Source of the DNA: Nitrospiraceae bacterium
GTDB lineage: Bacteria; Nitrospirota; Nitrospiria; Nitrospirales; Nitrospiraceae
Assembly: GCA_919902505.1 (NCBI GenBank)
Contig: CAKKRE010000016.1
Location: forward strand, 124,001 to 188,000
Reading direction: 5' to 3'
Length of the DNA stretch: 64,000 nucleotides
Shown: in pieces, positions 50,619-55,165 of the stretch
Position numbering within the stretch: position 1 is the stretch's first letter
How the letters are laid out: each line of letters begins with the position of its first letter
The notes under the pieces: generated by a model
Databases searched by the model: none
What the model was told of the DNA's origin: nothing
What the model saw: only the letters and a program-made list of their open reading frames with translations
Position numbers and translations under genes: made by a program

Positions 50619-51479
50619 ATGCGGGACGAACGGACCACGAACTACTACGCCATCCTGGAACTCTCTCCCGGCGCGTCAGACGCGGAGATCAAACGAGCCT
50701 GGCATGAACACATGCAGGTCTGGCATCCCGATCGCTTTGTGCATTCGCCGACCCTGCACCGGAAGGCCGAGGCCCGCACGCAGCTGATCAACCAGGCCTA
50801 TCAAACCCTCAGCGACCCCGCAGCCCGCGCCCGGTACGACGCCGGCAGACAACATCCTTCCTCACCGACGCCACCTCCACGCCCCTCACCGACACCCCGT
50901 CCGCAAGCCGCTCCGCGACCGCGCCAGGAACTGCGCGGGCCACAAACGATGCTGAACGTCACCCGGTTCAGTCATCCCAAAATCATGGTGCCGGCCATCC
51001 ATATGCTGGTCGACAGCCGTGAACATCAGCCCTACGAATTCAAGGGACTCGTGCGCATCGCCGGAACGCTGAAACAGACGCTGCCGGCCGGTGACTATGC
51101 GATTGCGGAAGCCCCGGCTATTTTTTGCGTGGAACGCCGCCGCGTAGAGGAGTTCAACACCATCTTCTCCAACCCGTCCGACAATCGTCCGCGCTTTCTC
51201 CGTGAGCTCGAACCGCTTCTCGCGTACCCGCATCGCTTTCTGGTGATCGAAGGCACAATCCAGTACAACCGCGGCGGAGGGCGGCTCGGCCAATATCACC
51301 GCAACGGCATGGTGGATTTTCTGGATGCCCTGACGGCCAGATTCGGACTGCAGATCATCTATTCAGACAGTCGCGAAGATGCCGAGGAGCGTGTGGCGAA
51401 CCTGGCGGCGCTCCACTATGCCTACCATCTCGCCGAACAGCAGGGCCTCGGTCGCTGCCTCACGGAGAACGACGCCTAG
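50619..51479 (+). CDS. J-domain protein fused to an ERCC4-type nuclease domain
   Basis: 286 residues. Residues 8-75 are a J-domain with the HPD motif at 36-38. A proline-rich linker covers 81-103. From 125 the sequence LVDSREHQPYEF opens an ERCC4/XPF-type nuclease fold, with Asp132, Glu135, GDY at 158-160 and VERRRVEEF at 171-179 in place of the usual ERKxxxD, so the catalytic Lys is Arg. The J-domain would recruit an Hsp70. I do not recall this fusion as a described family. A Ycf46-like ATPase gene follows after 65 bases. A role in DNA repair or protein-DNA remodelling is speculative. Confidence 0.75.
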   Translation: MRDERTTNYYAILELSPGASDAEIKRAWHEHMQVWHPDRFVHSPTLHRKAEARTQLINQAYQTLSDPAARARYDAGRQHPSSPTPPPRPSPTPRPQAAPRPRQELRGPQTMLNVTRFSHPKIMVPAIHMLVDSREHQPYEFKGLVRIAGTLKQTLPAGDYAIAEAPAIFCVERRRVEEFNTIFSNPSDNRPRFLRELEPLLAYPHRFLVIEGTIQYNRGGGRLGQYHRNGMVDFLDALTARFGLQIIYSDSREDAEERVANLAALHYAYHLAEQQGLGRCLTENDA

Positions 51480-51544
51480 GCCGGAAGAAAACAAACACCC
51501 CTTTTCTTGGTCAGGCGAGTGCCTCGTGTTAGCATTTCACTCCT

Positions 51545-53107
51545 ATGGCGTTATCGACGAGCGTGCATGACCTCCGCACATTGATTCGCTCCTGCCACCC
51601 CCTGATCGTCATCGAGACGGTCGAAGAAGAGCGGGTGCTGGCCTTGCTCCAATCCGTGGCGGCGCAGGAACGCATGCCGCTGTTCGAATGGTCGATTACC
51701 AGGGGCCTCACCAGGCAGGACGATGGGCAAGCCATCAGCAAGATGACGGCCACCCCTCTGGCAGTCCTTCAACACCTCAACGGACTGACCGTAGAAGCCC
51801 TGTTCTGGCTCAAAGATCTTGCGCCGCACCTGCAGGACGCCGCCGTGGCCCGCCAGTTACGCGAAGTCAGTCATCACTTCGGCCGTTCTCGTACGACCTG
51901 TGTGCTCACCGGCCATCCCATCGTCCTTCCGTCCGACATCGAACAGATTGCGGTCCGGCTCGACCTGCAGCTGCCGGATCGTGATGAACTGCAGTCCATG
52001 CTCCACAGTGTGCTGCAGTCACTCGGCACGAGAACGTCGCCGCGCCGCCCCGGCTCCACCACCGTGATGCAGAGTATTCTTCACTCGCTCGCCGACTCCA
52101 AACCGACGCAGTCTGGCCCCTCGACACAGGAATGCGACGCCATCCTCCGCGCCTTGCAGGGATTGACGTTGCATCAAGCCCGACAGGTCATCACGCAATG
52201 CATCGTCGAGGACGGCAGACTGTCTGCTGCTGACGTACAGACCATCCTGAAACGCAAGGTCCAGGCGATCAAGGACGGCGGGTTGCTGGAATATTATCCC
52301 CTCGAAGACAACCGGTTCGAATTAGGCGGATTCGTGAATCTGAAATCCTGGCTGGAACGGGCGAAGGTGGGATTCACAGCAGAAGCCAAGGCGCTCAACC
52401 TGACGCCGCCGCGCGGCATCATGCTGGTAGGTGTGCCGGGCTGCGGCAAATCGCTCGCGGCAAAAGCCATTGCGCGCGAGTGGCAACTCCCGCTGCTCAA
52501 ACTCGATGCCGGGCGGCTCTTCGACAAATTCGTCGGCGAATCGGAGAAGAATTTCCGGAAGGCGATCGAAATGGCGGAATCCCTCTCGCCGATCGTGCTC
52601 TGGATCGATGAAATAGAGAAGGCGATGGTGGCCGGCGGCGGGAGCGGAGACGCCGATGCCGGATTGAGCCGCCGGCTCTTCGGCGCCTTTCTCACCTGGC
52701 TGCAGGAAAAGAAGCAGGAGGTATTCGTCGTCGCCACGGCAAACAACCTCGCCTCCCTCCCGCCGGAACTGCTGCGCAAAGGACGGTTCGACGAAATCTT
52801 CTTCGTGGACTTACCTGACGACCACGAACGGACCGCCATCTGGAAGATCCACCTGGCGCTCCGCAAACAGGACAGCGCGGGATTCGACCTCGAGAAAATC
52901 GTCAGCGCCAGTGATGGTTTCAGCGGCTCGGAAATCGAGCAGGCGGTCGTCGCCGCACTCTACCGGGCCTTACATTACAAGACCCCGCTGACGACCGATC
53001 TCTTGATTCAAGAATTGTCCAGCACCGTGCCGCTCTCGGTCACTCGCCACGAAGACATCGATCAGCTTCGAACCATGGCTCACGGCTGTTTCGTCAACGT
53101 GCGGTAA
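51545..53107 (+). CDS. AAA+ ATPase, Ycf46-like
   Basis: A 520-residue ATPase. The N-terminal 240 residues form the degenerate AAA-like half seen in Ycf46 proteins (starting LRTLIRSCHPLIVIETVEEE); the C-terminal half is a full AAA+ domain with Walker A GVPGCGKSLAAKA, Walker B IVLWIDEIEKA, sensor 1 ATANN and Arg-finger region LRKGRFDEIFFVDLP. Ycf46 is known from cyanobacteria and plastids, where it is linked to inorganic-carbon stress; function elsewhere is not known. It pairs with the J-domain/nuclease gene upstream, which suggests a chaperone-like machine. Confidence 0.85.
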   Translation: MALSTSVHDLRTLIRSCHPLIVIETVEEERVLALLQSVAAQERMPLFEWSITRGLTRQDDGQAISKMTATPLAVLQHLNGLTVEALFWLKDLAPHLQDAAVARQLREVSHHFGRSRTTCVLTGHPIVLPSDIEQIAVRLDLQLPDRDELQSMLHSVLQSLGTRTSPRRPGSTTVMQSILHSLADSKPTQSGPSTQECDAILRALQGLTLHQARQVITQCIVEDGRLSAADVQTILKRKVQAIKDGGLLEYYPLEDNRFELGGFVNLKSWLERAKVGFTAEAKALNLTPPRGIMLVGVPGCGKSLAAKAIAREWQLPLLKLDAGRLFDKFVGESEKNFRKAIEMAESLSPIVLWIDEIEKAMVAGGGSGDADAGLSRRLFGAFLTWLQEKKQEVFVVATANNLASLPPELLRKGRFDEIFFVDLPDDHERTAIWKIHLALRKQDSAGFDLEKIVSASDGFSGSEIEQAVVAALYRALHYKTPLTTDLLIQELSSTVPLSVTRHEDIDQLRTMAHGCFVNVR

Positions 53108-53410
53108 GCGGATTCGATTCCGCTCCGTTGAGACAACCGCTTCGGTGACTGCATTCACCGGCTGACCGGGACTCTCCCGACAGGATGCGCCTCGTGCCCG
53201 CCCACAGCCGGATCAGTCCGGGGCACCTCGCAGAGCCTGGCCATCGTACAGTAAGATAATCCATTGTGCCTGGGGCCGCTGAGGGCGACGAATCCTTCTC
53301 CCTCAGGATGCCTCTAATCGAATACAGGCAGGCTCGGAAACACCTCTATCTACCCGGTGTCTCGCCTGACAATGGAAGGGACTTGTTCATCTCAACCAGA
53401 GACTCACGTC
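53108..53410. other. Intergenic region before the TPR protein
   Basis: About 300 bases with no gene, repeat or clear promoter recognised. Confidence 0.4.
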
Positions 53411-55165
53411 ATGATGATCCATACATGTTCGCCCGTTCGCGCGCCGCAGCCGTTCATCCGGCTGACCTATCACATCATTGGATTCCTTCTCCTGCTCCTG
53501 CTCCTCACGCTGACAGACGCCCACAGGGCCATGGCGAACGACCAGGCCCCCCACTCGGAAAGCCAGGTCGCCCAACGCGCCAAAACCGCATGGGAACAGG
53601 GTACGACAGACTTGGCCCTCGGCATTCTGGAGCAAGGCATTCATGAGAACCCGCAGGCGTTCGCGCTGCACCGACTCCGTGGCGACATGCTGGCCACCTC
53701 ACGCCACACCGAAGCGGCCCTTGAGTCCTATGAAACCGTCCTGGCGAGTATTCCCACGGCATTGGACGTGCGATGGGCGAAGTGGAGCGTGCTGGTTCGG
53801 TCCGGGCAGGTGGAAGAAGCGGTCACTGAATTGCAGCGCATTGCCGCCATCGATCCCCAGAATCCGCTGATCCATTTGCGACTGGCCCGTGAGCTCCGGA
53901 AACTCGACCGGCTGGAAGAATCCTTCAAGTCCTATCAGCAGGCCGTAGAGCTGGGACCCGACATGCTCAACTGGCGGTTAGCGATGGCCCGCGCGCGATT
54001 CGATATGTTGGATTACGAAGGCGCAGATCGCGAGGTGCAATCTGTGTTGCAACAAGTCTCGCCCGGTTCCCCGCTGGAGCTGTCCGCCAAGAATCTGCTG
54101 ACCGTGTTCTACGGATCGACGGAGCGAGGCCGCCGCTTTGCCCCCATGATGAGCCCGGACGCGAACCCGAAACAACTCAGAGACTGGTCGATGATTCGCC
54201 ACGACGCCTACGCGCTCTTCGAGGCCGGGCGCTATCAGGACGCCGAACCGATGTACCGGCAACTCCTGCTCCTCAATCCGATGGACCCCCTCGCCACGCA
54301 GCACCTCGGACTGATCCTCATGAACCTGGGCCGCTGCAAAGAGGCGATCAGCATCATCCCCAAAATGGAGGGCCTCGATCCCCTCGACGAAGACTATGCG
54401 GCGACCGTCTATCGCCTGGGTCAATGTCTGGTGGATTTGGGGAAATGGGAAGACGCGTACATTCAATTCAAGATTCTCTACGACACGACCGTGGCATTTG
54501 AACAGTCGACGAGGGAGGTCGAACTTCCAGTCGGAACCAGAGTGCTGGATAAAAATAAGTTGCTGCGATGGTTAGACAAGATCCGTCCGCATGTCCCCGA
54601 ACTGGCCAAGGAAATCGAGCTGGAGGACGCCGCCCCGGTCACACCGGCGGCGCCGGTCGTTCCCTCGGAAGCAGAGCTCGCCGCGAAGGCCATGGAGAAC
54701 TTGAAGCCACAGAACACCCTGGATACGGCGACCTCCCTGGTCGGACGGGATGCCGATTTTGCCTGGTTTCGATTCGTCATTCCCGCAAAGAAAGTCATGC
54801 GGGACGATTCGCCCACCGGCGCGCACGACTTTATTCCCCTGGACCCTGGAATCAGCTTTCCCGCTACCCAGCAGGACATTTACCTGGTGTTCGGATTGGT
54901 GACGGCGTCATACGACGAAGTTCCCTTGGCAGCGCGTTGCTTCAAAGAGCGCACGGAGCTGACCGGCGCGCAGCCGGCGGTGGTGCAGGATCGGCTCATC
55001 ATGTCCACCAACGACCAATCCGGGTACTTTGTCCTGTCGCGTCCCTCCACCGGCTGGACGACGGGACTCTACCGATGCGGGTTATTCGCAGGGGAGCAAA
55101 CCTCAGCCTACACCCAGGTGGATGAAGTGCGATTCCGCATCGTTGAATCGACGAAGCCGTCGTAA
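53411..55165 (+). CDS. Exported TPR-repeat protein
   Basis: 584 residues. After a signal or anchor segment with seven leucines in a row, about residues 60-340 contain at least seven TPR-like helical pairs (for example ALGILEQGIHENPQAFALH and YRQLLLLNPMDPLATQHLG). The C-terminal 200 residues form a separate globular domain with DFAWFRFVIPAKKV and YFVLSRPSTGWTTGLYRCG. The start is chosen at the ATG pair at 53411 so that the leader is near the N-terminus; a longer frame begins at 53357. It may be a periplasmic scaffold. Not assigned to a named family. Confidence 0.68.
   Translation: MMIHTCSPVRAPQPFIRLTYHIIGFLLLLLLLTLTDAHRAMANDQAPHSESQVAQRAKTAWEQGTTDLALGILEQGIHENPQAFALHRLRGDMLATSRHTEAALESYETVLASIPTALDVRWAKWSVLVRSGQVEEAVTELQRIAAIDPQNPLIHLRLARELRKLDRLEESFKSYQQAVELGPDMLNWRLAMARARFDMLDYEGADREVQSVLQQVSPGSPLELSAKNLLTVFYGSTERGRRFAPMMSPDANPKQLRDWSMIRHDAYALFEAGRYQDAEPMYRQLLLLNPMDPLATQHLGLILMNLGRCKEAISIIPKMEGLDPLDEDYAATVYRLGQCLVDLGKWEDAYIQFKILYDTTVAFEQSTREVELPVGTRVLDKNKLLRWLDKIRPHVPELAKEIELEDAAPVTPAAPVVPSEAELAAKAMENLKPQNTLDTATSLVGRDADFAWFRFVIPAKKVMRDDSPTGAHDFIPLDPGISFPATQQDIYLVFGLVTASYDEVPLAARCFKERTELTGAQPAVVQDRLIMSTNDQSGYFVLSRPSTGWTTGLYRCGLFAGEQTSAYTQVDEVRFRIVESTKPS

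Follow-up and report, generated by a model that had tools for sequence, protein, structure and literature searches.

A family of J-domain proteins in Nitrospira with an XPF/ERCC4-type fold as a candidate client-binding module

J-ERCC4 is a protein of 286 aa in which a J-domain is joined to an XPF/ERCC4-type fold. Its gene is located at 50619..51479 (+ strand) of the window, i.e. the whole stretch of 64,000 nt from a Nitrospiraceae bacterium that was analyzed. With somewhat better than even confidence, the protein is regarded as a specialized J-protein of class C in which an ERCC4 fold, once that of a mobile-element-type nuclease, would have become a client-binding module for DnaK. Since the cutting site has decayed repeatedly and the rest of the domain is under selection, J-ERCC4 is probably no DNA cutter and instead directs the chaperone to some target. 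A more specific reading is offered tentatively: in Nitrospira, a bacterial XPF/ERCC1-type pseudonuclease may be the client-recognition module of an Hsp70 co-chaperone and direct DnaK to particular DNA structures or nucleoprotein complexes.

The domain calls were judged against the curated cut-offs of Pfam, which are exceeded by both halves of the protein. The J-domain (PF00226, aa 8-74; 50640..50840, + strand) scores 61.3 bits against a cut-off of 27.8 (E 9.2e-17) and is matched by T. thermophilus DnaJ (4j7z) in Foldseek. Its HPD motif at aa 36-38 (50724..50732, + strand) can be read directly from the sequence and is invariant in the 67 full-length homologues. The J-domain is followed by a Pro/Arg-rich linker (aa 77-109; 50847..50945, + strand) with a net charge of about +5, for which model confidence is low and whose C-terminal end is a conserved RGP (aa 106-108). 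The second half is an ERCC4 domain (XPF-type, restriction-endonuclease-like; aa 124-286; 50988..51476, + strand) that is slightly acidic (pI 6.4) and assigned by PF02732 over aa 131-261 (39.2 bits against a cut-off of 24, E 8.2e-10). In a single-sequence phmmer search, Hef of P. furiosus (1j22) also matches this half (E 5e-4), and the alignment places D132 (DSRE), D159 (GDY) and E172-R173-R174 (ERK in Hef) at the active site. An AlphaFold model of the whole protein, for which 67 homologues served as input, matches DnaJ and Hef in Foldseek, each with E 5.5e-5 and a probability of 1.00; its mean pLDDT is 68, the linker being disordered and aa 131-158 poorly modeled. A profile search of the PDB returned nothing, whereas single-sequence phmmer and Foldseek did find matches. 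An earlier note, made from the sequence alone, had described a J-domain with an intact HPD, a proline linker and an XPF/ERCC4-type half with DxRE, GDY and ERRR, in which the usual catalytic Lys is Arg. All of these elements are found in place, with DxRE reading DSRE, and profile, sequence and fold agree on the ERCC4-like nature of the second half.

By its sequence, the window protein qualifies as a J-domain protein of class C (type III); stimulation of Hsp70 ATPase activity is predicted. Like HscB, auxilin and AtcJ, J-ERCC4 has a J-domain with HPD and no zinc finger or DnaJ C-terminal domains. In the window protein, Pfam finds DnaJ and ERCC4 and nothing else; a G/F region is missing as well, the linker being rich in Pro and Arg. 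Class C proteins are specialists that are defined by their extra domains (PMC13254874), and here as in the other members the extra domain is expected to choose the client. J-ERCC4 differs from them in that this domain is an XPF/ERCC4-type fold, which is undescribed for any J-protein in the literature searched. The combination, which the earlier note had singled out as unfamiliar, is indeed unusual: no paper was found on ERCC4 with a J-domain or on ERCC4 with Nitrospira, in a search of mainly openly accessible literature. Hsp70 is supplied by two full-length PF00012 genes in the window's own genome. The interaction with Hsp70 may be unusual, given a conserved Glu30 in the J-domain that, by inspection, sits at a position where helix II of E. 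coli DnaJ carries a basic residue, close to the contact with DnaK.

The homologues of J-ERCC4 comprise 82 distinct sequences, all from Nitrospira-type genomes, and both halves are kept except in a few truncated members. A chance fusion or a gene-calling artefact is ruled out, as the fusion recurs in nearly all of these sequences. Members without a J-domain are mostly affected by contig edges, N-runs or frame problems (L135, L165, L175, L142, L170), and two more (L125 and L167) are apparently truncated. The gene is found in 67 of 118 sampled genomes of the family and in 10 of its 22 genera. Within the window's genus, a full or nearly full copy is present in 24 of 29 genomes and a tail at a contig end in a 25th; three near-complete single-contig genomes (G004, G021, G022) are without it. 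A scan of 84,980 prokaryotic species with two family-tuned peptide patterns, which is blind to relatives elsewhere without those peptides, yielded 69 loci. These are titled Nitrospira, Nitrospiraceae or Nitrospirae, and the few exceptions look misassigned, e.g. one 'Gaiellales' MAG contig. Given this distribution, the fusion is old and stable, and it was probably invented in the Nitrospira family.

The contig labeled 'Gaiellales bacterium' (L135) encodes a Nitrospira-type J-ERCC4 with 70% identity and probably reflects a binning error, and a locus labeled Nitrosospira (L114) looks like Nitrospira. One genome with an intact gene also contains a second, broken fragment (G017:C7:13938-14102; 64% identity, one stop). 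No J-ERCC4 was found in phages, plasmids or viral contigs. A phage origin of the whole fusion is rejected for lack of any match in the phages and viral contigs scanned.

Unlike the HPD motif, the catalytic residues vary across the family. D132 of DxRE (51012..51014, + strand), the first acidic residue of the ancestral active site, is retained in 78 of 80 sequences, and E135 is near-invariant as well. D159 of GDY (51093..51095, + strand) is present in the window and is D in 51 of 81 sequences. The equivalent of the catalytic ERK, E172-R173-R174 (51132..51140, + strand; direct reading and family alignment), carries Arg in place of Lys in the window; family-wide, position 172 is E in 41 of 82 sequences, and position 174 is K in 18 and R in 32. 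The set D132/D159/E172/K174 is complete in 8 of 82 sequences and the strict DxRE/GD/ERK pattern occurs in only 4, while D159 or E172 is missing in 41, through losses in at least three lineages. D132, D159 and E172 together with a basic residue at position 174 are retained in 40 of 82 members, the window included. The window protein nevertheless fails the GDXnERKX3D motif, reading GD...ERRx3E, and does not satisfy the sequence definition of an XPF nuclease. The Arg of its DxRE is replaced by His, Gln or Cys in close relatives.

In a tree built without the catalytic columns, losses of E172 are located in separate groups: E to L in the L131/L088 group, E to V in L096 and L148, and E to K in a clade of 29 members that has also lost D159 and carries I, L or M instead of K174. 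The clade of the window (about 31 members) has Arg at position 174 and keeps D132, D159 and E172. Taken together, D159, E172 and K174 are more variable than random columns of the ERCC4 domain (P 0.025); adding D132 weakens this excess, which is then not significant (P 0.09). Near-invariant columns make up 51 of the 162 columns of the domain. D233-F-L-D236, R252 and E256-R258 are among its conserved residues and mark a region that may be a dimer interface. For the ERCC4 domain, dN/dS amounts to 0.086 among the 29 decayed members and to 0.095 in the clade of the window. With these values of about 0.09, mere pseudogenisation is ruled out; the fold and many non-catalytic residues are under strong purifying selection. 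A model of the domain from the decayed clade (pLDDT 81, pTM 0.78) matches Hef (TM 0.72-0.74) and also EME1, the ERCC1 central domain and FAAP24 in Foldseek. The signature of a pseudonuclease, a kept fold with lost catalytic residues, is clear in half of the family; the window keeps D, D and E and has only Lys replaced by Arg. With the catalytic residues decayed in half of the sequences and HPD invariant in the full-length members, a working nuclease is doubtful for the family as a whole.

The closest sequence relatives found are stand-alone ERCC4 nucleases of plasmids and haloviruses (phrog_3490; Rhodoferax WP_011458674, HRTV-27 gp75). In contrast to J-ERCC4, these proteins have no J-domain and an intact GD...ERK. 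Since GD and ERK are kept in nine of nine stand-alone relatives, an intact catalytic site is most simply read as ancestral. The Rhodoferax protein WP_011458674 shares 34% identity with J-ERCC4 over 162 aa, and a C-terminal GxGRxLxExDL tail is common to both. A conjugative plasmid of Rhodoferax ferrireducens encodes a stand-alone ERCC4 protein (L188:5926-6498) that has this tail and an intact site; haloarchaeal tailed viruses carry similar small ERCC4 nucleases. A scan of viral contigs with the Rhodoferax ERCC4 protein found no relatives. Two other families of the phylum have longer ERCC4 proteins of about 355 aa (L090, L093, L094), which lack a J-domain and keep the site intact; similar long ERCC4 proteins are found on plasmids of Rhodococcus and Mycobacterium.

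With the nucleases Hef, XPF and Mus81 (PF02732; 1j22, 2bgw), J-ERCC4 shares the fold and the positions of the DxRE/GDY/ERK motifs. It differs from them in the decay of catalytic residues in half of the family and the Lys to Arg exchange in the window, and in that a J-domain is fused and helicase and (HhH)2 domains are missing, neither of which has a Pfam match in the window protein. In its working, J-ERCC4 would be most like the eukaryotic ERCC4 pseudonucleases, minus their (HhH)2 domains and active partner. In the ERCC1 central domain, FAAP24, FANCM and EME1, the ERCC4 fold likewise outlives the catalytic residues. J-ERCC4, in contrast, is bacterial, fused to a J-domain and without (HhH)2, and it has no active ERCC4 partner in the window's own genome, in which one ERCC4 match is found genome-wide and no second ERCC4 protein. 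The central domain of ERCC1 has LFL in place of ERK and binds both XPA and ssDNA (PMC6320978), and the pseudonuclease domain of FANCM binds dsDNA (PMC12263834).

Under the favored explanation, an active mobile-element-type ERCC4 nuclease would have been captured beside a J-domain in an ancestor of the Nitrospira family and would then have become a pseudonuclease that serves for binding, much as the central domain of ERCC1 or the pseudonuclease domain of FANCM does. This module would bind a particular nucleic-acid structure or nucleoprotein, or else a protein attached to such a client; the J-domain would make DnaK grip and remodel the client chosen by the ERCC4 half. The full catalytic set in 8 of the 82 members counts against a pure-binding reading, and the near-invariant D132 and E135 are not obviously required by pure binding. 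Weak nuclease activity is possible in the window's clade, which keeps D132, D159 and E172 with only Lys changed to Arg.

It appears rather unlikely that J-ERCC4, at least that of the window's clade and of the D/E/K-intact clade, cuts DNA as a structure-specific endonuclease, with DnaK controlling its assembly, turnover or recruitment via the J-domain. Such a role is consistent with the three acidic residues and basic position 174 in nearly half of the sequences, the complete set in a few, the near-invariance of D132 and E135, and stand-alone relatives that all look active. However, other clades have lost catalytic positions independently with selection on the domain unrelaxed, the DxRE Arg is exchanged in close relatives of the window, whose whole clade has Arg for the catalytic Lys, and neither an (HhH)2 or helicase domain nor a second ERCC4 subunit is at hand. 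Two observations would also fit a domesticated mobile-element or defence protein, with the ERCC4 half as a sensor or trap for invading DNA or rival nucleases and the J-domain as the recruiter of DnaK: the nearest stand-alone relatives belong to a conjugative plasmid of Rhodoferax and to tailed viruses of haloarchaea, and an AbrB/PIN gene pair adjoins J-ERCC4 in several genomes. We consider such a role improbable, given that the gene is not found in phages, viral contigs or plasmids, that its neighbors are housekeeping genes and form no defence island, and that its evolution is slow and vertical-looking. No PADLOC model matches J-ERCC4, and a known anti-phage defence system is rejected for this reason.

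The earlier note had further proposed that J-ERCC4 and its neighbor form a remodeling machine for damaged DNA or protein-DNA complexes. The adjacent ORF does encode a Ycf46-like AAA ATPase of 520 aa (51545..53107, + strand; PF00004, E 2e-31). It lies on the same strand as J-ERCC4, 66 bp apart, and positions 50619-53107 take in both ORFs. The ATPase belongs to a widespread full-length family: over 95-99% of its length it is 33-40% identical to products of genes annotated 'AAA family ATPase' on plasmids, some of them cyanobacterial. Among the 25 genomes of the window's genus with J-ERCC4, the ATPase gene is directly downstream in 19 (in 3 of them as judged across contig ends). In another 4 it follows after a gap of about 2 kb, which contains an AbrB-like/PIN pair and an opposite-strand gene; G015 and G009 have J-ERCC4 without an ATPase orthologue. 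Both genes are missing together from G004, G021 and G022, but a single deletion of linked genes would yield the same co-absence. Outside the genus, J-ERCC4 is found in 42 and the ATPase in 42 of 89 genomes, with both in 19 against 19.8 expected (Fisher p 0.83), and by contig position the two are linked in none of these 19. The pair is thus linked within the genus and not conserved outside it. With adjacency limited to one genus and co-occurrence elsewhere at chance, the partnership is rejected, and a single DNA or protein-DNA remodeling machine made of both proteins is very improbable. The ATPase is judged to be a genus-limited neighbor outside the system, which J-ERCC4 would not need.

That an ERCC4 nuclease can turn into a binding module is already known from eukaryotic DNA repair (ERCC1, FAAP24, FANCM, EME1), and the decay seems to have been repeated several times within one bacterial family. 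Apparently intact, Lys to Arg and fully decayed members coexist, so that the transition is open to stepwise study. If the module binds DNA, it would provide a direct physical route that brings Hsp70 to DNA structures. Should the reading as a client-binding module for DnaK be true, a conserved gene in nitrifiers of central ecological importance would have its function assigned.

The most constant downstream neighbor of J-ERCC4 across genera is a TPR-repeat protein, encoded in the window at 53357..55165 (+ strand) with an N-terminal hydrophobic (signal-like) segment. It is given as context only and is not counted as a partner, because it looks exported and is often separated from J-ERCC4 by other genes. 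In several genomes from two genera (L186:5381-6036, L187, L106, L104, L105, L088), J-ERCC4 is followed at a distance of 60-500 bp by a same-strand pair of an AbrB-like and a PIN-domain gene (toxin-antitoxin-like), which is absent from the window. Where the AAA ATPase gene is present, the pair is found between it and J-ERCC4, and the PIN gene is truncated in some cases.
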